Shown: positions 3,481 to 34,320 of the stretch, in pieces | Layout of the letters: every line of letters starts with the position of its first letter | Numbering within the stretch: the first letter of the stretch is position 1 | Assembly: GCA_021846125.1 (NCBI GenBank) | Contig: JAJZCK010000006.1 | Span: 1-34,320 of the forward strand | DNA: 34,320 nucleotides | Direction of reading: 5' to 3' | Origin: Actinomycetes bacterium | GTDB lineage: Bacteria > Actinomycetota > Acidimicrobiia > Acidimicrobiales > Bog-793 | Notes under the pieces: model-generated | Told to the model about the DNA's origin: nothing | What the model saw: only the letters and a program-made list of their open reading frames with translations | The model's database searches: none | Made by a program: the position numbers and the translations under genes

Positions 3481-4251
3481 TCAGCCGGCCTGCGGGCGTG
3501 CGGCGCCGGCGAGCGGACCCGGCCGGCCGAGGAGGTAGCCCTGGCCGAGGGTGAACCCCAGCCCGACGAGCGCTTCGAGCTGGCCGATCGTCTCGACTCC
3601 CTCCGCGACGACCTCGAGCCCGAGAGCGCCTGCGAGCTCGAGCACGAATCCGAGCACAGCGGTGGCCTTCGCTCCAGGGAGTCGCACGACGAGCTTCCGG
3701 TCGAGCTTGAGGACGTCGACGGGCAGCTCGCTCAGCGCGTGGAGCGAGCTGTAGCCGGTGCCGAAGTCGTCGAGCGCGATCTTGCAGCCGAGCGAGCGCA
3801 GGTCGCGCAGCGTCACCATCGCCGCGCGGTCGTCGACGACGGCGCTCTCGGTGATCTCGAGGCAGAGGCGGGCGAGCGCGATGCCCTCGCAACCGAGCTC
3901 CTCGACGCACGCGAGGAGGGATTGGCTGTGCAGCTGGTGGGGTGAGACGTTGACCGTGAGCCCCGGAGCGTCCCCGGCGTCGTCGCACAGGAGGTCGGTG
4001 GCAGCGGCGCGCAGCACTTGGCAACCGAGCCAGTCGATGCTCCCGCTGCGCTCGGCCGCGGGCACCCAGTCCTCGGGGGCGACGAGGACGCCGCCGAGCT
4101 CGAGCCGAGCGAGCGCTTCGACGAAGCGAACGTCGCGGCTGACGAGGTCGACGATCGGCTGGTAGTGCACGACGAGGGCGCCGGACAAGGGCCCAGCAGG
4201 TGGCCCGCCGCCACGGTCCGGGCTCGTCCATGCGTGCTCCAAGGGTGCCAT
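3481..4251 (-). CDS. Stand-alone EAL-domain c-di-GMP phosphodiesterase
   Basis: EALARLE, VNVSPHQL, LEITES, DDFGTGYSSL, VDVLKLDR, VVAEGVET and GQGYLLGRP motifs all present; ORF can extend to a GTG at 4305. Confidence 0.9.
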   Translation of the reverse strand: MAPLEHAWTSPDRGGGPPAGPLSGALVVHYQPIVDLVSRDVRFVEALARLELGGVLVAPEDWVPAAERSGSIDWLGCQVLRAAATDLLCDDAGDAPGLTVNVSPHQLHSQSLLACVEELGCEGIALARLCLEITESAVVDDRAAMVTLRDLRSLGCKIALDDFGTGYSSLHALSELPVDVLKLDRKLVVRLPGAKATAVLGFVLELAGALGLEVVAEGVETIGQLEALVGLGFTLGQGYLLGRPGPLAGAARPQAG

Positions 4252-4327
4252 CGCCGCTCTCTCGCTTCCTCTGCCGGGGCGCGGGCGGGGCGCCGTCCCT
4301 TGCACTCTCCACGGCCATCTTCACGTG

Positions 4328-20230: not shown

Positions 20231-21088
20231 GCGGGCGCTAGCGGCGGGCCGCCGCACCTCGTCGGCTGCGAGGAGGCGACGGAGAGTCTGGATCGCAGTG
20301 GCCTCGATCTGGCAGACGCGTGAGTTGCTCACCCCGAGCATCACGCCGATCTGCTCCTGGGTGAGCCCTCCGAGGAAGTGCAACGTGACGACTGTGCGCT
20401 GGCGCTCGGGCAGCTTGGTCACCGCGCGCCTGACCTCTTCGAACTGCTCGCTGCGCAGCACGAACGGCTCGGGCTCGGCGTCGCGGTCGGAGACGATGAG
20501 GTCGATGAGGCGCATCTCCTCGCCCGCTGCGGCGTTCCCCACGCTGTGCTGGAGGTGGAGGAGCTGCGAGGACTGCACGGCCGTGAGGACGTCCTCGCCG
20601 ATCGCGCCGTCGGTGCCCATCTCGGACAGGACCTCGCTCGTCTCCGGGGTGCGCCCGAGCTCGCTCGACAGCGCGTCGACGGTCGCCCGGTAGGTGATGA
20701 CCCGGCGGCGCACCGTGCGGGGGAGCCAGTCCAGACGGCGAAGCTCGTCGAAGATCGCGCCGCGGACCCTTTTCGTCGCGTAGCTGGGGAACCGGTTCGC
20801 AGGGGAGTCGCTCGCCCAGCGGTCGATCGCCTCGACGAGGCCGAGGAGCCCGAAGCTGCGCAGGTCGTCGATCTCCCAGTAGCTGCGGACGTTCGCCGGC
20901 AGGCGGGAGACGACAAGCTTGACCAGGGGCTCGTAGGCGAGGATCAGGTCGTTGCGTGCGACGCGGTCCCGCCCGGCCCAATAGCGCTCCCACAGGGCGT
21001 CGGTGTCGTCAGGTTCCGGCAGTTGATGGTTGGCACGCGCGAGCCGCGGAAGGCACCGGGTCTCGCTGAGGCTCGGCAAGGCTGTCAT
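20222..21088 (-). CDS. FliA/WhiG-type RNA polymerase sigma factor (paralog 1)
   Basis: YEPLVKLVVSRLPANVRSYWEIDDLRSFGLLGLVEAIDRW...FPSYATKRVRGAIFDELRRLDWLPRTVRRR...LTQEQIGVMLGVSNSRVCQIEATAIQTLRRLL; SD AAGGAG before ATG 21088. Confidence 0.92.
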   Translation of the reverse strand: MTALPSLSETRCLPRLARANHQLPEPDDTDALWERYWAGRDRVARNDLILAYEPLVKLVVSRLPANVRSYWEIDDLRSFGLLGLVEAIDRWASDSPANRFPSYATKRVRGAIFDELRRLDWLPRTVRRRVITYRATVDALSSELGRTPETSEVLSEMGTDGAIGEDVLTAVQSSQLLHLQHSVGNAAAGEEMRLIDLIVSDRDAEPEPFVLRSEQFEEVRRAVTKLPERQRTVVTLHFLGGLTQEQIGVMLGVSNSRVCQIEATAIQTLRRLLAADEVRRPAASARPA

Positions 21089-24314: not shown

Positions 24315-24833
24315 TCAGCTCGTCGCAGGCCCCGCTGCGCGCCAGACGCGCACCACGACCGGCTCGCCGCGCCAGTCGAGCAGCACCTCGTGCTCGAGCG
24401 TCGCCGCGAAGCGCCACTCGCCGGCCTCGTCGCCGACGGTCGGCACCGACAGGCTCGTCGGCGCCGGGAGGATGCTCTTGATGTTGCCGCCGACGACGTT
24501 GACGAGCTCGCCGACCGCGTCGTGGACGTCGGAGACCTCGAGGGCGTCGCTCGAGAGCGAGAACATCGCCGCGGCGATGCGGCGTGCCGCGGCGAGCGAG
24601 CACGACAGCTCGACGCTGCCCGACCAGCTGCCGCCGATGTCGATACGGCCGCGCACCTCCTCGGTCGCAGGCAGCGTCGAGCCGGGGAGGAGGACCGCGT
24701 CGTCGGGGAGGAAGGCATCCCAGAAGCTCTGGGCGATCTCGGCGATGGTCTCCGCGGTCAGGAAGTCGTCGAGCGCGCCTGCAGGTAGTCCTGCGCACGT
24801 GAGGCCGACCCCGGTCGATCGAGCGTCGTTCAT
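24315..24833 (-). CDS. cheX: CheX-like chemotaxis phosphatase
   Basis: HDAVGELVNVVGGNIKSILPAPTSLSVP (E-x2-N motif); 4-bp overlap with cheY. Confidence 0.82.
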   Translation of the reverse strand: MNDARSTGVGLTCAGLPAGALDDFLTAETIAEIAQSFWDAFLPDDAVLLPGSTLPATEEVRGRIDIGGSWSGSVELSCSLAAARRIAAAMFSLSSDALEVSDVHDAVGELVNVVGGNIKSILPAPTSLSVPTVGDEAGEWRFAATLEHEVLLDWRGEPVVVRVWRAAGPATS

Positions 24834-25246
24834 GGCAGGTACTCGCCTCCTTGGTGGTCGGACGCCGGGGTGGCCTCGGGGGCGAGACCGAGCAGGGAGA
24901 GCTTCTCGAGGACCGCGTCGGCGGAGAACGGCTTGATCAGGTACTCGTTCGCGCCCGCCAGCAGCGCGCGGACCATGTTCTCGTGCTCGCTCTCGGTCGT
25001 GACCATCATGATGGCCATGTGGCGCCACTCCTTGTGGCGACGCATCTCGGTGACGAGCTCGAGACCGTCCATGACAGGCATGTGCCAGTCGACGAGCGCG
25101 ACGTCGGGCAGGGGCCCGGCTACGACCGCGTCGATCGCCGCCCTCCCGTCGGCAGCCTCGGCGACGTCGATGCCGAGTCGCCCGAGGATCTGGCGCAGCA
25201 GCGATCGCATCGCCCGCGAGTCGTCCACGACGAGCGCGTGCATCAC
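24830..25246 (-). CDS. cheY: CheY-like response regulator
   Basis: ALVVDDSRAMRSLLRQILGRLG...PDVALVDWHMPVMDGLELV...MVTTESEHE...GANEYLIKPFSAD. Confidence 0.93.
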   Translation of the reverse strand: MMHALVVDDSRAMRSLLRQILGRLGIDVAEAADGRAAIDAVVAGPLPDVALVDWHMPVMDGLELVTEMRRHKEWRHMAIMMVTTESEHENMVRALLAGANEYLIKPFSADAVLEKLSLLGLAPEATPASDHQGGEYLP

Positions 25247-26067
25247 GCTCCCTCCTTCCGGTAGATGGTGGTGCCGCCAGCCGGCATCGAGTGGAACCCC
25301 TCGACGAGCCCGCGCGGGCTCTCCGCGGTTCCGAGCAGCAGGTAGCCACTCGGCCGGAGGTGCGCCTTGGCCTCCTCGAGAACCTTGGCCTTCGTCGCGA
25401 CGTCGAAGTAGATGAGGACGTTCCGGAGCAGGATGATGTCGTAGTCCTGCATCGGGGGCCAGGGCTTGGCGAGGTTGAACAGCTCGAAGCGGACCTTCGA
25501 GCGCAGCGCGTCCGCGATGACGTAGTGACCGCCTTCGTGGCGGAAGTAGCGCACGAGATGGGAGGCAGGCAGGCCCCTGTTGATCTCGAGAGCCGTGAAA
25601 TGGCCCGAGCGGGCCTTGTCGACGACGGTGGTCGACAGGTCAGTCCCGTGCAGGTCGAGCTTCCAGGACGCGACCTCGGAGAACTCGGCGTCGAGGATCA
25701 TCGCCACGCTGTAGAGCTCCTGGCCGGTCGAGCACGCTGCGCTCCAGATCGACAGCTTCCGCCGTACGACGTTCGCGGCGATGACCTCCGGCAGGACGAT
25801 CTTGCGCAGTGCCTCGAAGGGGGCAGCGTCGCGGAACCACGACGTCTCGTTGGTCGTCATGGCGTCGACGACGGCTACCTCGACGTCTCTGTCCCCGCGC
25901 CGAATCGCGCGGACCAGCTCGCCGATGGAGCCGACCCCGGCGCGCTGCACGACGGGCAGCAGCCTCGTCTCGACGAGGTAGTGCTTCTCCTCGGAGAGGA
26001 CGATCGCCGACCTGTCGAGCAGGAACTGCTGGAGGAAGTGGAAGTCCTCCGTGGTGGCGGTCGTCAC
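25243..26067 (-). CDS. cheR: Chemotaxis protein methyltransferase
   Basis: MTTNETSWFRDAAPFEALRKIVLPE, LSIWSAACSTGQELYSVAMIL, YDIILLRNVLIYFD; GTG start overlapping cheB stop. Confidence 0.95.
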   Translation of the reverse strand: MTTATTEDFHFLQQFLLDRSAIVLSEEKHYLVETRLLPVVQRAGVGSIGELVRAIRRGDRDVEVAVVDAMTTNETSWFRDAAPFEALRKIVLPEVIAANVVRRKLSIWSAACSTGQELYSVAMILDAEFSEVASWKLDLHGTDLSTTVVDKARSGHFTALEINRGLPASHLVRYFRHEGGHYVIADALRSKVRFELFNLAKPWPPMQDYDIILLRNVLIYFDVATKAKVLEEAKAHLRPSGYLLLGTAESPRGLVEGFHSMPAGGTTIYRKEGA

Positions 26068-27263
26068 GCGTGGGCCTCCGTGAGCGGGCGTGCGAGCGAG
26101 CGGGCGATCGCAGGTGCTATGTCGTCGAGACCGAGCACCTGGTGCGCGAGCCCGGCGCGGGCGACTGCACCCGGCATGCCCCACACCACCGACGTCGCCT
26201 CGTCCTGCGCGTAGACGGCTCCACCGGACGCCTGCACGCTCCGGCACCCCTCGAGACCGTCCTGCCCCATCCCGGTGAGGACGACAGCGAGCACGCGGGG
26301 TCCGTAGATCGCGGCCGCACTGCGGAAGAGCACGTCGACAGAGGGCTTGCAGGAGTTCTCCGGCGGTCCGTCGTCCACGGCGGTGACGACTGTCGCACCT
26401 CGACGGCGGACGACGAGGTGGGTCCCGCCCGCCGCGACGTAGACGTTGCCGGCGACGACCTCTGTTCCCGCGACCGCCTCGACGACGTGGAGCGCGCTCC
26501 GGGCGTCGAGCCGCTCGGCGAGGAGCCTCGTGAACAGCGGGGGCATGTGCTGCACGACGAGGACCGGGACGCCGAGGGAACCAGGCAGGTTTGGCACGAG
26601 CTCGGTGAGGGCCTGTGGTCCACCGGTCGAGGAGCCGATCACGACGGCGTCCGGCCGAGCGGAGCGTCCCGAGCGCGTCGCTGCGAGCACGGGCACGTGG
26701 GCGCCGGGCACGGACGGGCCCGGCCGGGGAAGTTCCGGCGATGCGGCAGGCGCTCGGAAAGGCACGTGCGCAGCAGGCGCCGCGTCGTCGGCGCCCGGCG
26801 CCGAGGCAGGCCGCGGGCGACCGGCGTCCCGGCGCGCGCGCTGGAAGGTCCCCCAGGAGCGAAGGACCGGTGCGAGCTCGTCGCGCACCGCCCGGCTCGC
26901 GGCCTCCGGGTCGCCGAGGTGCGAGGGCTTGAGCACGTAGTCCGTCGCTCCCGCGGAGAGCGCGTCGAGGGTCGCGGTGGCGCCGCGCGCGGTGAGCGTC
27001 GAGTACATGACGACCGGCAGGTCGGGCCAGCGCGGGCGCAGCGCGCGCAGGGTCGCGAGCCCGTCCAGCTCGGGCATCTCGATGTCGAGCACGACGACGT
27101 CGGGGAGCTCCGCGGCGAGCTTGTCGAGCGCGATGCGCCCGTTCGGGGCGGTCGCAGCGACGACGATGTCCGGCTCCTGCTCGAGCGCCCCGGTGACGAA
27201 GTGCCGGATGACAGCGGAGTCGTCGACGAGCAGGACCCGCACGGCGGGCCCGGCCGGGCTCAC
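26064..27263 (-). CDS. cheB: Chemotaxis response regulator protein-glutamate methylesterase
   Basis: Receiver VRVLLVDDSAVIRHFV...DIEMPELDGL plus esterase VIGSSTGGPQAL, VVQHMPPLFTRLLAERLD, VVLTGMGQDGLEG; GTG start. Confidence 0.95.
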   Translation of the reverse strand: MSPAGPAVRVLLVDDSAVIRHFVTGALEQEPDIVVAATAPNGRIALDKLAAELPDVVVLDIEMPELDGLATLRALRPRWPDLPVVMYSTLTARGATATLDALSAGATDYVLKPSHLGDPEAASRAVRDELAPVLRSWGTFQRARRDAGRPRPASAPGADDAAPAAHVPFRAPAASPELPRPGPSVPGAHVPVLAATRSGRSARPDAVVIGSSTGGPQALTELVPNLPGSLGVPVLVVQHMPPLFTRLLAERLDARSALHVVEAVAGTEVVAGNVYVAAGGTHLVVRRRGATVVTAVDDGPPENSCKPSVDVLFRSAAAIYGPRVLAVVLTGMGQDGLEGCRSVQASGGAVYAQDEATSVVWGMPGAVARAGLAHQVLGLDDIAPAIARSLARPLTEAHA

Positions 27264-27766
27264 GAGGCACGCCGCGTGCCGGCGAGCTGCGGCGCGACCG
27301 CGTGGTCGAGTGTGATGCGGCTGACGGACTCGGTGTCGAGCACGAGCAGGAGTGACCCCTCGAGCTTGTAGGTGCCGCTGCACAGGCTCCGGATCTGGCG
27401 GGGCGTCGTCGAGGGGACCGGCTCGTAGGTCTCGAGGGCCGGCTCCACCACCTCGCCGGCTTCGTCGACGAGAAGGCTGACCACCTCGTCGGCGAGCCGG
27501 ATGACTGCGTTCATCGACGGCGTCTCGGCCGGCAGGCGGTCGAGGCCGAGCCAGAGCCGGACGTCGATCGCGGTGACGATCTGGCCGCGCAGGTTGATGA
27601 GCCCCCGGACCTCGCGGGGTGCGAGCGGGACCGAGGTCATCGGCTGGTGACGGATGACCTCCTGGACGCGCCAGACCTCGATCCCTATGAGCAGGTGGTC
27701 GACCTTGAACGTGCAGTACTGGACCGCGCCGTCGCTCGCCTGGCGCTGCGGGCTCTCATGCGACAC
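27260..27766 (-). CDS. cheW: CheW coupling protein
   Basis: YCTFKVDHLLIGIEVWRVQEVIRHQPMTSVPLAPREVRGLINLRGQIVTAIDVRLWLGL. Confidence 0.94.
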   Translation of the reverse strand: MSHESPQRQASDGAVQYCTFKVDHLLIGIEVWRVQEVIRHQPMTSVPLAPREVRGLINLRGQIVTAIDVRLWLGLDRLPAETPSMNAVIRLADEVVSLLVDEAGEVVEPALETYEPVPSTTPRQIRSLCSGTYKLEGSLLLVLDTESVSRITLDHAVAPQLAGTRRAS

Positions 27767-30188
27767 GGCCGGTCTCCTTGGTCGAGAGCTCGTAGGCGGC
27801 ATGGACGTCGAGGACGTCGGTGACGTGACCGTGGACGACGGTCGAGCCGAGGATGCCGGGCGACGCGCCGACGGCCCGCACCTCGAAGACCCCTTCGACG
27901 ATGTCGAGGATCTCCGTCGCGACGAGCCCGAGCTGACGCTCGCCGTCGGAGTAGACGACGACCGGCACGCTCGTCGGGGGGTCGCCGAGAGCCTCCGGCT
28001 CGGGCTCCTCGCCGGCGATGCCTGGCAGGATCGACGCGAGGGCGACGAGAGGGAGCAGGTCGCCTCGGTACTGCATCACCCTGCCCCGGCCGGCCTGCTC
28101 GACGGCGTCGACAGGTGCCTCCTCGAGGCGCGAGACCGCCTTCAGCGGGACCGCGACGCGGCGCTCGCGTCCGACGCGCAGCAGCACGAAGGTGCTCCGC
28201 TCCCCGGCACGCCCCGCCTCGTCCGCGTCCGCTCCGGTGGAGCCGAGACCCGCGGCCACCTCCTCGACCTTCGCAGTCGACGCGAGGCCGATGACGTCGA
28301 GGATGAGCGCGACGCTGCCGTCGCCGAGGATCGTCGCGCCAGCGAACAGCGGCACCTGCTTCACGTGCTGGCCGAGCGGCTTGACGACGATCTCCTCGGT
28401 CCCGAAGACGTCGTCGACCACGACGCCGAGCAGGAGCCCGTCCGCCTGGAGCACGACGATGCTCACCGCGTCGGTCCCGTCGTCGGTCGCGAGCGGCGCG
28501 TAGCCGAGGGTCTCGTCGAGCCGGACGAGCGGGAGGAGCTTGCCGCGCAGGCGGTAGACGAGAGCGCCGCCGATCCGCTCGATGTCGTTGTGCGTACCAC
28601 CGGTGCGCAGCTGGACCATCTCGAGCAGGTTCGCCTGGGGGATCGCGTAGCGCTGCTCCCGGCAGCCGACGAGGAGCGCCGGGATGATCGCGAGCGTGAG
28701 GGGGATCTTGATGCGGAAGGTCGTGCCGATCCCGGGCGTGCTCGTGAGATCGACGGTCCCGCCGATCCTCTCGACGTTGGTGCGTACCACGTCCATTCCG
28801 ACGCCTCGGCCGGAGACGTTGGTCACGACGCTCGCCGTCGAGAAGCCCGGACGGAAGATGAGGTCGACGATCTCCCGCTCGCTCATCGAGTCGAGCTGAC
28901 CCTGGTTCACGAGGTCCCGCTCGAGCGCCTTCGCGCCGATCCTCCCGGGATCGATGCCGGCGCCGTCGTCTGTGACCTCGAGGACCACCTGGCCGCCTTC
29001 GTGGTAGGCGCGCAGCGCGAGCGTGCCGGTCTCGGGCTTGCCTGCCGCGACCCTCTCGGCCGGCAGCTCGATCGCGTGGTCGATCGCATTGCGGACGAGG
29101 TGGGTGAGCGGGTCCTTCACGGCTTCGAGGAGTGACCGGTCCAGCTCGGTCTCGCCACCCTCCATCTCGAGCGAGACACTCTTCGCGAACAGCGCCGCGA
29201 GGTCGCGGACGACCCGAGGCAGCTTCGACCAGAGCTGCTCGACCGGCTGCATCCGGGTCTTCATGACACCTTCCTGGAGCTCGCTGACGATCATCGACAG
29301 CCGTTGGACGGTCTGGTGGAGCGCCTGGTTGTCGAGTGCGTCGACGTGCGCGCTGACCTGGTTGCGAGCGAGCACGAGCTCGCCCACCTGGGCCATCATC
29401 GAGTCGAGCAGGTCGACGTCGACTCGCACGCTGCGCTCGCTTGCAAAGCGGTGCCCGTCCGCGGGTGCGGGCTCGGGTGCGTCGGGTGGAAGCGCAGCCG
29501 GCACAGGGGAAGCCGGCACAGGGGAAGCCGGCACAGGGGAAGCCGGCACAGGGGAAGCCGGCACAGGGGAAGCCGGCACAGAGGAAGCCGGCACAGGGGC
29601 ACCCGGCGCCTCGGACGCCGCGACCCGGGGCGCCGCGACCCGGGGCGCCGCGGGGACGGCGGGGGCCGTGACGGCCGCAGGAGCCGGCGCCTCGGCTCGC
29701 GACGCGGGCCCGACCCCTGCAGGAGCCTCCCTCGCGACCTGCTCGACGGCGCCGGGCACCTGCGCGTCGGGCTCCGCCTCCGCCTCCGCGTCCTCGTCCG
29801 GCTGCTGGAGTCGCTCGAGCGTCGCGACGAGGCCCGCGAGGTCCCGGTCGCCCTCCGCACCGGTGTGCTCGATCGCGGTGAGCAAGGCGCGGATCTCGTC
29901 GACGACTTCGAGGAGCGCGTCGGTGCGCGCGCTCGTCAGCTCGAGCCGACCGTCGCGCAGCTCGCTCAGGAGGCTCTCGGCGGCGTGGGACAGGCTCTCG
30001 AGGCGGGTGAAGCCGAGGAAGCCCGTGGTGCCCTTCACGGTGTGGATCGTGCGGAACACGCTGCCGAGCAGCTCGCGCGAGTGGGGGTCGCTCTCGAGCG
30101 CCACGAGATCCTGGTCGAGCTGGTCGAGGTTCTCGCTCGTCTCGACGAGGAACTCCTGGACGATCTCGTTCATCGCGTCGTCGTTCAT
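27756..30188 (-). CDS. cheA: Chemotaxis histidine kinase with P1, Pro/Ala-rich linker, kinase core and two CheW-like domains
   Basis: FRTIHTVKGTTGFLGF (P1), HLVRNAIDHAIE, VTDDGAGIDPGRI, GRGVGMDVVRTNVE, GIGTTFRIKIPLTLAIIPALLV, then a second CheW-like domain at the C-terminus. Confidence 0.95.
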   Translation of the reverse strand: MNDDAMNEIVQEFLVETSENLDQLDQDLVALESDPHSRELLGSVFRTIHTVKGTTGFLGFTRLESLSHAAESLLSELRDGRLELTSARTDALLEVVDEIRALLTAIEHTGAEGDRDLAGLVATLERLQQPDEDAEAEAEPDAQVPGAVEQVAREAPAGVGPASRAEAPAPAAVTAPAVPAAPRVAAPRVAASEAPGAPVPASSVPASPVPASPVPASPVPASPVPASPVPAALPPDAPEPAPADGHRFASERSVRVDVDLLDSMMAQVGELVLARNQVSAHVDALDNQALHQTVQRLSMIVSELQEGVMKTRMQPVEQLWSKLPRVVRDLAALFAKSVSLEMEGGETELDRSLLEAVKDPLTHLVRNAIDHAIELPAERVAAGKPETGTLALRAYHEGGQVVLEVTDDGAGIDPGRIGAKALERDLVNQGQLDSMSEREIVDLIFRPGFSTASVVTNVSGRGVGMDVVRTNVERIGGTVDLTSTPGIGTTFRIKIPLTLAIIPALLVGCREQRYAIPQANLLEMVQLRTGGTHNDIERIGGALVYRLRGKLLPLVRLDETLGYAPLATDDGTDAVSIVVLQADGLLLGVVVDDVFGTEEIVVKPLGQHVKQVPLFAGATILGDGSVALILDVIGLASTAKVEEVAAGLGSTGADADEAGRAGERSTFVLLRVGRERRVAVPLKAVSRLEEAPVDAVEQAGRGRVMQYRGDLLPLVALASILPGIAGEEPEPEALGDPPTSVPVVVYSDGERQLGLVATEILDIVEGVFEVRAVGASPGILGSTVVHGHVTDVLDVHAAYELSTKETGRVA
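29497..29646. repeat. 15-bp tandem arrays in the cheA linker (7 copies plus 2 copies of a second unit)
   Basis: gccggcacaggggaa x7 at 29497-29601; gccgcgacccggggc x2 at 29617-29646. Confidence 0.96.
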
Positions 30189-30234
30189 CGGTGGCCTCTC
30201 TGGACGGGTTCGACAGTGCCGGGCTTGGGGGCGG

Positions 30235-31077
30235 TCACGTGCGCGCGAGACCCTGGGATCGTGCATAGGCGCGCAGCTGCTTGATCGCCCCGGTGCGGAT
30301 CTGGGAGACCCTGCTCTCGGTCACGCCGAGACGGGCGCCGATCTCCGCGAGCGTGAGGCCCTCGCCGAAGCTGAGCGCCGTCACCGTGCGCTCGCGCTCG
30401 TCGAGGGTGCCGATCCAGCTGCGCAGCGCCTCGCTCGTCTCGTTCGCGACGCAGACTGCGAGCGGCTCGTCGTCGGGGTCGGGCGGCTCGGGAGGTGCCG
30501 TCGTCGTCCCCGGCCGGACCGCTTCGAGCGAGCCCACGTAGGCCCCGCTGATCTGGCCCTTCGAGCTCCGGAGGATGCCGACGGCGACGCCGAGGGCACC
30601 TGCCTCCTCGGCCTCGGTGGGCTCGCGACCGTGCTCGGTGCACAAGTCGGCGAAGTTCGCGTGGATCTCGCGCTCCCGGCGCCGGAGGCTGCGCGGCGCC
30701 CAGTCGGTACGGCGGACCCCGTCGTAGATCGCACCGCGGATCCGGTGAGCGGCGAAGGTCGAGAACTGCGCACCGCGTGACGCGTCGAAGCGGTCGACCG
30801 CGTCGAGCAGTCCCTCGGCGCCGTAGCCCTCGAGGTCGTCGAGCTCCACCTTGTGAGAGAGCGAAGCTGCGACTCTCCGTGCGACGTGGCGCACGAGCGG
30901 GTAGTAGGCGGTGACGAGCGACTTGCGGGCGCCGGGGTCCCCGCTCGAGCCGAAGGCCTCCCAGAGGCGCGCGAGCTCCGCCGAGCGCCCGTTCTCTGCC
31001 ACGCGCCCCTCGCCGGCGGGAGACGGGCTCTCGCGCTCGTTCGCTCGAGCGCCCGCGGTCGTACGTAGATGCGTCAT
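30235..31077 (-). CDS. FliA/WhiG-type RNA polymerase sigma factor (paralog 2)
   Basis: YYPLVRHVARRVAASLSHKVELDDLEGYGAEGLLDAVDRFD...FSTFAAHRIRGAIYDGVRRTDWAPRSLRRR...LTLAEIGARLGVTESRVSQIRTGAIKQLRAYA; ATG at 31077. Confidence 0.92.
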   Translation of the reverse strand: MTHLRTTAGARANERESPSPAGEGRVAENGRSAELARLWEAFGSSGDPGARKSLVTAYYPLVRHVARRVAASLSHKVELDDLEGYGAEGLLDAVDRFDASRGAQFSTFAAHRIRGAIYDGVRRTDWAPRSLRRREREIHANFADLCTEHGREPTEAEEAGALGVAVGILRSSKGQISGAYVGSLEAVRPGTTTAPPEPPDPDDEPLAVCVANETSEALRSWIGTLDERERTVTALSFGEGLTLAEIGARLGVTESRVSQIRTGAIKQLRAYARSQGLART

Positions 31078-31201
31078 CGACACAGAGCTGATGACGGCTT
31101 CGTCGCGGTCGTTGTTGATAGCCGACTTCGTGGCACGGCGAAGCCCCTTCGAGGCGGGGCGCAGTCCGCGCGCTCCGATCGGCGGGTCGTCCGACGCCAT
31201 C

Positions 31202-31232
31202 CGCTCAACTGCAGTCGGCACGGGGCCGATAG
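31202..31232 (+). promoter_or_regulatory. Sigma28 (FliA)-type promoter upstream of RR-CheX gene
   Basis: CGCTCAA-N16-GCCGATAG. Confidence 0.7.
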
Positions 31233-31390: not shown

Positions 31391-32248
31391 GTGCGGGTCC
31401 TCGTAGTGGACGACAGCCGGGCGATGCGGATGATCGTGTCCCGCGAGCTGCGCAGCATCGACGCGGTGAGTGGCGTCGTAGAGGCTGACAGCGCCGAGGC
31501 GGCGATCGAGCTCCTGCCGGTGGAGCCGGTCGACCTGATCCTCTGCGACTGGAACATGGGCGGGATGTCCGGCCTCGAGCTGCTCGAGGCGCTGCGCGCG
31601 GCGGAGTGGACCGTGCCGTTCGGCTTCGTCACCTCCGAGTCGAGCGAGGCGATGCAGCGGAGCGCCTTCGCGGCGGGAGCGGCGTTCCTCGTCGCGAAGC
31701 CCTTCACGGGCGCGGATCTTGCGGCGAAGATCGAAGGGTTCCTCGCGGGCCAGAGCGGCGCGACGACCGCGACCTCCGGCGGTCCGACGGACCGGGCCGC
31801 AATGGTCGCGAGCCTGCTCGCCAGCCTCGTGCGGATGCCCGTCGCCGTCGTGCACGCGGCCGAGGGGCCGGCCCGTCAGGTGGCGCGCTGGACGGCGGAC
31901 TACGCAGACGCGAGCGGCGACGACGCCGCGATCTGCGTGGTCGAGACGCCTATCGCATCGGCGCTGTCCGCGGCGCTCACGCTCATGTCCCCCGCAGTCG
32001 CCGCGGAGTGGGCCGAGTCCGGGACGCTGCCCGACATCTTGTCGGAGAGCTTCCACGAGGTGACCAACGTGCTCGCGAAGGTCGTCCGGACCGACGGCGA
32101 GCGCTGTATCCTGCGCTCGGTGGCGGGATTCGCTGCGGGCGAGAAGCTCCCCGAGGCGGACCGGATCGCGGCCGCGCCATCGAGCGAGCACTTCCAGGTC
32201 TCGCTCGCGGGCTACGGCGCGGGGCTCATGTCCCTCGTCACGCTGTGA
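31391..32248 (+). CDS. Response regulator fused to CheX/CheC-like domain
   Basis: VLVVDDSRAMRMIVSRELR...LILCDWNMGGMSGLELL...FLVAKPFTGADL, then C-terminal ILSESFHEVTNVLAKVV (E-x2-N); GTG with AGAGGGAG SD. Confidence 0.82.
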   Translation: MRVLVVDDSRAMRMIVSRELRSIDAVSGVVEADSAEAAIELLPVEPVDLILCDWNMGGMSGLELLEALRAAEWTVPFGFVTSESSEAMQRSAFAAGAAFLVAKPFTGADLAAKIEGFLAGQSGATTATSGGPTDRAAMVASLLASLVRMPVAVVHAAEGPARQVARWTADYADASGDDAAICVVETPIASALSAALTLMSPAVAAEWAESGTLPDILSESFHEVTNVLAKVVRTDGERCILRSVAGFAAGEKLPEADRIAAAPSSEHFQVSLAGYGAGLMSLVTL

Positions 32249-32829
32249 AGGGGGCGCGTGGGGTGACGACTCGTGACGACCAGACGGGCCTTATGAACCT
32301 GGGCGCCTTCACCTTCGTCGTCGACCACGTCGTCCGCCGCGCGAGCCGCGCGGGGGAGTGCGCGACGATCCTCTCGATAGGCATCGGGACGAGCACCGGC
32401 GCGGGGCGCCCCGGCCGTCCAGTCCCGCCTCCGAGCTCGTCCACGGTGTACCGGGTCGCGCGGATGCTACGGACCGAGCTCCGCGGCGAGGACGTCATCG
32501 CGAGGCTCGGGACGCGCGAGTTCGGCGTCGCGCTGCCGGACACCGACGCAGGACAGGGAGAGATCGTCGTCGGCTGGATCCAGTCTCTGCTGGCCGGCGA
32601 GGACGGCTCCGACCCTCTCGGCGAGGTGGTGTCGGTCGGCCGTGTGACCTTCGAGCCGACACGAGGTCCAGTGTCCGCGGAGGCGCTCCTCGACGCGGCA
32701 CGAGGGTCACGGGGCGGGCCGTCGAGCCTGTCCGGCGACGACGTGCCGGCAGAGCGCGCGAGCGACGCGACCCCGTCGCGCGGCGGTGGGCGCCGGCACC
32801 TTCGCCCCCTGCGCTCGCCGGAGAGCTGA
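32245..32829 (+). CDS. Degenerate GGDEF-domain protein (GTREF) with RxxD I-site-like motif
   Basis: RDDQTGLMNLGAFTFVVDHVVRRASRAGECATILSIGIG...VYRVARMLRTELRGEDVIARLGTREFGVALPDTD; GTGA overlap with preceding gene. Confidence 0.78.
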   Translation: MKGARGVTTRDDQTGLMNLGAFTFVVDHVVRRASRAGECATILSIGIGTSTGAGRPGRPVPPPSSSTVYRVARMLRTELRGEDVIARLGTREFGVALPDTDAGQGEIVVGWIQSLLAGEDGSDPLGEVVSVGRVTFEPTRGPVSAEALLDAARGSRGGPSSLSGDDVPAERASDATPSRGGGRRHLRPLRSPES

Positions 32830-32907
32830 GCCGCGGAGCAGGGCCGCACGGCTCGTTCCCGGCAGCTCGTCCAGGGCAGCTCTCGTGGGGACGGCACGCG
32901 GTGCGCA

Positions 32908-32938
32908 CGCTCAAGATCGGCGTCGCTCCGGCCGATAG
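32908..32938 (+). promoter_or_regulatory. Sigma28 (FliA)-type promoter upstream of flbD-motAB
   Basis: CGCTCAA-N16-GCCGATAG, same core as at 31202; ATG 49 nt downstream. Confidence 0.75.
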
Positions 32939-32987
32939 CTCATCTGGCGATGCGCGCTCGGCTCGCCTGAACGGTCAGGAAGACGAG

Positions 32988-33329
32988 ATGATCACGTTGC
33001 ACAATGTCCAGGGTCATCCGGTCGCGATCAACGGCTCGCTCATCGAGCGGGTCGACGGCGGCCCGGAGACCCACGTGCTCCTCGTGAGCGGGACGAGCTA
33101 CATCGTGACCGAGTCCATAGAGGACGTCGTCCGGCTGCATCGCGAGGACCGTGCTGCGGTGCAGGCGCTCGCCGACTCGATGCCGCGCGAGCTGGTGTCG
33201 GCCGGGCCGGCCTCCTCCCTGGCGTCCACGGCGCCGCGGGACGGCGCGCTCCGGCTGCTCACGAGCTCGAGCGCCTCCGGGGTGCCGGGCCCCGACGGCG
33301 ACGGTGCCGGGAAGGGGACGGCGCGGTGA
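32988..33329 (+). CDS. flbD: FlbD-family flagellar protein
   Basis: MITLHNVQGHPVAINGSLIERVDGGPETHVLLVSGTSYIVTESIEDVVRLHRE. Confidence 0.88.
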   Translation: MITLHNVQGHPVAINGSLIERVDGGPETHVLLVSGTSYIVTESIEDVVRLHREDRAAVQALADSMPRELVSAGPASSLASTAPRDGALRLLTSSSASGVPGPDGDGAGKGTAR

Positions 33330-34111
33330 AGGACAACTGGACGTCGATGGCGATCGGGGGCGCGCTCGCGTGCGTGCTCGTCGCGATGGTGCTCGACGGC
33401 AGCAGCCCGGCGGTGCTCATCAAGCCGGCACCGCTGCTCCTCGTGTTCGGCGGGACGTACTTCGCTGCGACCGCGGGATACATGAAGTCCGACCTGAAGG
33501 GCGTAAAGCCGATCCTCAAGCGGGCCACGGGCGGCGACGCGTACGACATGGAGGTCGCGATCCAGGAGATGGCCCGGCTCGCCGGGATCGCGAAGAACTC
33601 CGGCATCATCGCGCTCGACAAGGAGACCCACAGCATCGAGGACCCCTTCCTCCGCCGTGGCATCGAGCTCGCGGTCGACGGCACGAACTCCGAGGAGATC
33701 CTCGACGTGCTCGAGAACGACATCGCGTCGACCGAGGCGCGTCACCGCATGGGTGCGAAGCTCTTCGCGGACATGGGCGGGTTCGCTCCGACCCTCGGCA
33801 TCATCGGCACGGTCATGGGGCTCGTCCACGTCCTCGGCAACCTCTCAGACCCGCAGTCGCTCGGCCCGGCCATCGGCTCCGCGTTCACGGCGACCCTTTG
33901 GGGCGTGCTCAGCGCGAACCTCATCTGGCTCCCCATCTCGAACAAGTTGAAGCGGGCGAGCGACATCGAGGTCCAGATCAAGCACATGGAGATCGAAGGG
34001 CTGCTCGCGATCCAGAACGGCGCGAGCTCGCGGTTCGTGCGGACCCGCATGGAGTCGTTCCTCGCGCCGCAGTCGCGGGCCGGTGCCGCCGAGAAGGGCG
34101 CTGCGGCATGA
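33326..34111 (+). CDS. motA: Flagellar motor stator protein MotA
   Basis: VFGGTYFAATAGY, FLRRGIELAVDG, MGGFAPTLGIIGTVMGLVHVLGNL, GSAFTATLWGVLSANLIWLPISNKLK. Confidence 0.96.
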   Translation: MKDNWTSMAIGGALACVLVAMVLDGSSPAVLIKPAPLLLVFGGTYFAATAGYMKSDLKGVKPILKRATGGDAYDMEVAIQEMARLAGIAKNSGIIALDKETHSIEDPFLRRGIELAVDGTNSEEILDVLENDIASTEARHRMGAKLFADMGGFAPTLGIIGTVMGLVHVLGNLSDPQSLGPAIGSAFTATLWGVLSANLIWLPISNKLKRASDIEVQIKHMEIEGLLAIQNGASSRFVRTRMESFLAPQSRAGAAEKGAAA

Positions 34112-34320
34112 GCACGACGGCCCGCCGCCGTCGCGGCGGGCACGAGCCGGAGCACGAGAACAACGAGCGGTGGCTGCTCACCTACGCCGACATGATCACG
34201 CTTCTGCTCGCACTGTTCGTCGTCCTGTTCGCGATGAGCTCGATCAGCGTGAAGAAGTTCCTCGAGTTCAAGCTCGGCCTCACCCAGTCGTTCAACCCCT
34301 CCGCCGTCGTCCTGCCGGGC
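34108..34320 (+). CDS. motB: Flagellar motor stator protein MotB, truncated by window end
   Basis: NNERWLLTYADMITLLLALFVVLFAMSSISVKKF; ATGA overlap with motA. Confidence 0.95.
   Translation, partial: MSTTARRRRGGHEPEHENNERWLLTYADMITLLLALFVVLFAMSSISVKKFLEFKLGLTQSFNPSAVVLPG

Follow-up and report, generated by a model that had tools for sequence, protein, structure and literature searches.

Does the flagellar motor of this actinobacterium receive c-di-GMP through a degenerate GGDEF protein encoded beside its stator genes? The question is raised by a locus at the end of the window, by which we mean the whole stretch of DNA analysed (34,320 nucleotides), an entire contig (G000:C277) of an Acidimicrobiaceae MAG (2.83 Mb, 95% complete). 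From position 31391 onward, the forward strand carries a fusion of a receiver with a CheX-like domain (hereafter RR-CheX), a GGDEF relative (hereafter GGDEF'), flbD/swrD, motA and motB (Table 1).

Gene order at the stator locus and its conservation

A first-pass annotation made from the letters of this DNA had read these five genes on one strand, and Pfam matches confirmed the reading, including the overlap (GTGA) between the GTG start of GGDEF' (194 aa) and the TGA stop of RR-CheX (285 aa). The contig ends inside motB, of which the first 71 codons are present, and motA is the sole MotA_ExbB gene found in a search of the genome. A FliA/WhiG-family sigma factor gene and a che operon are divergent from RR-CheX. 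Elsewhere on the reverse strand of the window, we noted a second sigma factor gene (20273-20998) related to the FliA/WhiG one (2e-36), and an open reading frame (3481-4305) that begins like an EAL domain (VVHYQPIVDL) and may encode a c-di-GMP phosphodiesterase.

Table 1. Features of the window, with their positions, strands and the matches or characters that define them
Feature	Position	Strand	Match or character
che operon CheA-CheW-CheB-...-CheY-canonical CheX	24423..30266	-	CheX PF13690 4.1e-15
Canonical CheX	24423-24650	-	PF13690 4.1e-15; beside CheY
FliA/WhiG-family sigma factor	30238..31098	-	NCBIfam TIGR02479 9.8e-58, 195.5 bits (cut-off 189.6)
FliA/WhiG-type promoter-like site upstream of RR-CheX	31205..31231	+	Pattern match, TCAA-N16-GCCGATA
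RR-CheX-like fusion	31391..32248	+	REC Pfam PF00072 5.5e-23, residues 3-114
GGDEF'	32245..32829	+	PF00990 1.1e-5, 25.7 bits (cut-off 23.8)
GGDEF' make-up			RGED I-site, GTREF for GGDEF, loop 48-64, disordered basic tail (RRHLRPLR)
RGED codons (I-site RxxD motif)	32482..32493	+	Invariant in 10/10 orthologues
FliA/WhiG-type promoter-like site upstream of flbD	32911..32937	+	Pattern match, TCAA-N16-GCCGATA
flbD/swrD (PF06289)	32988..33329	+	Pfam 4.2e-15
motA	33326..34111	+	Pfam MotA_ExbB 5e-32
motB, 5' part	34108..34320	+	Pfam MotB_plug 3.8e-21

The order RR-CheX, GGDEF', flbD, motA and motB was found in 10 genomes of the family, the window included, and in an eleventh the contig stops shortly after the GGDEF' behind RR-CheX has begun. 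A lack of conservation of the linkage of RR-CheX, GGDEF' and flbD, which would have refuted the first-pass reading, was not observed: the linkage is kept in all 11 family genomes carrying RR-CheX, the eleventh being read only to the GGDEF' start. RR-CheX and GGDEF' overlap by GTGA or by 1 base in 7 of the 10 loci, and the gap between GGDEF' and flbD is 50-164 bp. In three flagellated genomes of the family that do not carry the module, flgE lies in front of flbD. The same holds in the wider order, in which we inspected 30 flbD loci: at those where the preceding gene could be read it is flgE, apart from exceptions that have another or no flagellar gene in that place. GGDEF' was found neither at these 30 loci (±1.5 kb) nor in 11 larger regions, and a phylum-wide module was rejected on these grounds. 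The survey proposed for flagellated Actinobacteria thus supports conservation within the family and not in the phylum at large, and since GGDEF' was not found at the loci inspected outside it, the module seems to have arisen in one family of acid-loving flagellated actinobacteria. GGDEF matches in G016, G027, G032, G033 and G006 were rejected as other genes at a different locus. In other family members, a separate GAF-GGDEF protein (L195, G016:C37) and a related GGDEF protein (L194, G033:C43) have the altered signatures RSDEF and RGDDF and keep RxxD.

GGDEF' has a GGDEF fold and lacks the catalytic residues

We compared an AlphaFold model of GGDEF' (mean pLDDT 78.7) with known structures using Foldseek, and the top matches listed were GGDEF domains (best E = 2.3e-10, probability 1.00), with PleD, WspR and DgcB among the matches. 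Comparison of the GGDEF' family profile with a PDB GGDEF domain gave an E-value of 5.9e-18. Structure prediction and HMM search (PF00990), which the first-pass annotation had named as checks, both return GGDEF, and by model and profile GGDEF' shares the fold of the degenerate-GGDEF receptors.

GGDEF' has neither the metal-binding Asp on strand 1 nor the INDxxGHxxGD region nor the acidic residue of the signature. In the model, the INDxxGHxxGD region is replaced by a low-confidence loop (residues 48-64), which stands in for the P-loop and the first helix. GTREF (residues 89-93) occupies the position of the GGDEF signature, and RGED (residues 80-83) precedes it at the exact spacing of an I-site. 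The suspicion of a dead active site was well founded, with metal, GTP-loop and signature residues gone, and as judged from its residues GGDEF' is a GGDEF-fold domain whose catalytic residues have been lost. Near its C-terminus (window 32764-32826), the protein has a disordered linker and a basic motif (RRHLRxLR) conserved in the clade of the window, which is a possible docking peptide.

The I-site is conserved while the signature drifts

We aligned the GGDEF' orthologues of the window and nine other genomes of the same family (10 complete loci). Pairwise identity falls to 24%, and 17 of 122 ungapped columns are invariant; RGED, present in all 10 orthologues, is the sole run of four invariant residues. 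At the signature position, the variants GTREF, GLREF, GDREF, GGREF, GEAEF, GANEL, GSSEL, GPREL and GN-GF were observed. A simple shuffle, which ignores phylogeny, gave P = 0.018 for the invariance of both I-site columns and 0.03 for four consecutive invariant columns at any position. The dN/dS ratio of the GGDEF' core was 0.14-0.54, being below 1 in every pair tested, and the reading frame is open in all 10 complete orthologues. These results support the earlier claim of an intact I-site, which is kept under selection while the signature changes. RxxD alone is weak evidence: it also occurs in 12 of the genome's 18 other GGDEF domains, so that its presence is ordinary, and what carries information is that it was retained once catalysis had been lost.

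The second arginine of the I-site of PleD, R390, corresponds to Trp111 of GGDEF'. This position holds Trp in the clade of the window, Cys in one orthologue and Arg in 3 of the 10 (G005, G010 and G018); the window protein thus lacks the accessory second arginine (R390) of I-site receptors. We do not consider this arginine strictly defining, because BcsE binds c-di-GMP via R415 and D418 of its I-site, and these are the residues named as its conserved ligand residues (PMC7439463).

Promoter-like sites suggest two units of one regulon

A search with the pattern TCAA-N(14-16)-GCCGATA gave 2 matches in the window and none in 100 shuffles; the 2.83 Mb genome contains 3 matches, the third of which (C57) is apparently in unrelated sequence. 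The window sites resemble the flagellar/WhiG consensus TAAA...GCCGATAA (PMC8325347), and the predicted -35/-10 site TCAA...GCCGATAG is of the type TAAA...GCCGATAA that characterizes the sigma-28 (FliA/WhiG) regulon. The site before flbD is exact in 8 of the 10 orthologous loci and almost exact in a ninth, with TCAAG and CGATA blocks invariant in the 9 aligned, and the site upstream of RR-CheX is present in 5 of the 10. The first-pass annotation had placed GGDEF' and the stator genes on the same transcript. This is not supported in that form, because a conserved FliA-type promoter-like site sits between GGDEF' and flbD, and 'same transcript' becomes 'same sigma-28 regulon', with RR-CheX-GGDEF' and flbD-motAB probably being two units of it. 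No terminator-like site was found between the two units, so that read-through may still occur.

A predicted c-di-GMP receptor acting on motor output

The 18 other GGDEF domains of the genome make it likely that c-di-GMP is produced, and GGDEF', keeping only the messenger-binding site, probably lets c-di-GMP tune swimming. We propose that GGDEF' is a former diguanylate cyclase with its product-binding I-site kept, and that it may act as a c-di-GMP receptor on motor output; we see about equal chances that this proposal is right or wrong. The evidence is drawn from sequence, namely the loss of catalytic residues, the conservation of the I-site, purifying selection, gene order and the shared type of promoter. 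GGDEF' would be expressed with the late (sigma-28/WhiG) flagellar genes and would be coupled to the fused CheY-CheX-like protein, directly upstream of the stator genes. When the messenger rises, c-di-GMP would bind R80/D83 of GGDEF', the bound protein would interact differently with the RR-CheX fusion or with the FlbD-MotA-MotB machinery, and motor output would be lowered or redirected. We infer the binding of c-di-GMP by GGDEF' as well as its partner and the direction of its effect; the neighbouring genes suggest an output on motor power or on receiver phosphorylation, and gene order does not in itself prove the partner.

The loss of the second I-site arginine in 7 of the 10 orthologues counts against the receptor reading, as do the commonness of RxxD among GGDEF domains and the single PilZ match of the genome (G000:C275:4864-5145, outside the window contig), since this PilZ protein could carry the c-di-GMP input as a YcgR-like competitor. 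With rather less confidence, we tentatively suggest a PilZ-independent c-di-GMP route, in which a stand-alone dead GGDEF protein and a self-contained CheY-CheX fusion in the stator locus of one actinobacterial family would allow chemotactic phosphorylation and c-di-GMP to meet at the stator. If the receptor reading is right, a degenerate GGDEF protein would serve as the c-di-GMP input of the motor in a lineage of flagellated actinobacteria, with messenger sensing, CheY phosphorylation and stator power brought together in one small gene set.

The main rival of the receptor reading is that GGDEF' is a structural adaptor that has lost nucleotide binding, retains the RGED strand-loop because its folding or its contact with RR-CheX needs it, and scaffolds the fusion at the stator. 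Such an adaptor would fit the loss of the R390 equivalent, the conserved basic tail that follows a disordered linker and the frequent GTGA or 1-base overlap with RR-CheX (7/10); moreover, G81 and E82, which an I-site does not require, show the same invariance as R80 and D83. However, the conserved R and D are the very residues that bind the ligand, as R415 and D418 are in BcsE (PMC7439463), and we regard an adaptor without ligand as a possible but doubtful explanation.

It is also conceivable that the linkage reflects co-regulation only, with RR-CheX and GGDEF' acting on the chemotaxis switch (the level of CheY-P) and flbD-motAB being simply the next sigma-28 operon. The separate conserved promoter-like site before flbD, the 50-164 bp in front of that gene and the location of RR-CheX in other lineages, mostly among che genes and away from motAB, are all consistent with this explanation. 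We nevertheless consider it unlikely, given that order and orientation are kept in every RR-CheX-carrying family genome readable far enough, although GGDEF' identity falls to 24%, and that a terminator-like site between the units was not found.

V. cholerae VCA0965, with an AGDEF motif, is reported to be active (PMC3974145), and a weak or altered cyclase activity, as in some AGDEF-type enzymes, might be imagined for GGDEF' too; with the metal-binding Asp, the INDxxGHxxGD loop and the acidic residue of the signature all lost, this is highly improbable, and an active cyclase was rejected on residues. A decaying pseudogene, which the divergence and weak Pfam score of GGDEF' might suggest, is equally improbable and is ruled out by the dN/dS ratios and the open frames.

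Relation to known systems

The principle of the degenerate-GGDEF receptor is already known from PopA, PelD and BcsE. PopA of Caulobacter and SgmT of Myxococcus, the precedents for a GGDEF domain with a degenerate A-site and an intact I-site (PMC3509222), resemble GGDEF' in the dead catalytic site, the intact RxxD and the partnership with a receiver domain. However, their GGDEF domains share a polypeptide with receiver or kinase domains and function in cell cycle or matrix control, whereas GGDEF' is a separate small protein before the genes of the flagellar stator. The P-loop and the first helix have also been lost in BcsE and PelD, and the I-site of these proteins still binds c-di-GMP (PMC7439463); GGDEF' is like these GGDEF* domains in this loss, in its diverged signature and in the kept RxxD, and unlike them in that they are parts of larger proteins acting on exopolysaccharide secretion. 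YcgR, MotI/DgrA and FlgZ act on stators and provide a c-di-GMP input to the flagellar motor, as proposed for GGDEF', but have the PilZ fold, which GGDEF' does not.

SwrD is reported to increase flagellar motor power (PMC9195833), and SwrD/FlbD of B. subtilis belongs to the same Pfam family as the flbD product of the window and is likewise encoded beside motAB. The gene upstream of flbD is GGDEF' in the window, in contrast to flgE in the other flagellated genomes examined (where readable, with exceptions). Our search of open-licence papers, which is weak evidence of absence, yielded no description of the gene set or of the receiver-CheX fusion; a 2023 survey of actinobacterial flagella counts GGDEF proteins, and we found no description of the locus there (PMC10746217).

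The receiver-CheX-like fusion and its relatives

In an alignment of 20 sequences, the receiver residues D7, D8, D53, T81 and K103 of RR-CheX are invariant, as in CheY-like receivers, and so is E223-x2-N226 in the C-terminal half, which has the form of an E-x2-N phosphatase helix. The AlphaFold model (mean pLDDT 87.7) lets the C-terminal half start with a helix and three strands, continue with three helices and end in three strands, with a short helix between the last of these, which agrees with the order of secondary structures in CheX. A fold search with full-length RR-CheX was dominated by receiver matches, a Pfam search recognized no family in the C-terminal half, and in a profile comparison with canonical CheX (hhalign) the ExxN helices align with an E-value of only 0.15. 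Neither Pfam nor hhalign thus supports membership in the canonical CheX family, and we call the domain CheX-like only, probably a remote CheX relative as judged from its predicted topology, its invariant ExxN and its weak profile match. The C-terminal domain shares with the CheY-P phosphatases CheC, CheX and FliY the predicted order of secondary structures, the invariant E-x2-N helix and a CheY-like receiver as partner, and differs from them in lacking a Pfam CheX match, in its profile distance from canonical CheX (E = 0.15) and in being fused to its own receiver. RR-CheX is not the only CheX of the genome, which also encodes an ordinary CheY and a canonical CheX (Table 1); canonical CheX also occurs in most relatives carrying the module.

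Relatives of RR-CheX, most of them encoded among che genes, were found in Actinobacteria, Planctomycetes, Proteobacteria and others. In many phyla, two neighbouring genes encode them, one for the receiver (~120 aa) and one for the CheX-like domain (~160 aa), and the window protein is accordingly a fusion of a second CheY/CheX-like pair. The fusion thus points to a widespread second CheY/CheX-like pair, the CheX-like half of which has no Pfam name. At loci L103-L160 (e.g. L104:4905-5786, L107:8001-8897 and L139:8859-9704), a second CheY-like receiver precedes a CheX-like gene that no Pfam family matches; such pairs are widespread beside the che operons of Actinobacteria, Planctomycetes and Proteobacteria, and their nameless CheX-like half has a conserved E-x2-N. 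In some Acidimicrobiia-like genomes (loci L077, L101 and L102), cheR and then the gene of a membrane GGDEF protein with a degenerate signature come after the RR-CheX fusion; in L101 and L102, this is a GGDEF-EAL protein with the signature GGGSF/GGGNF.
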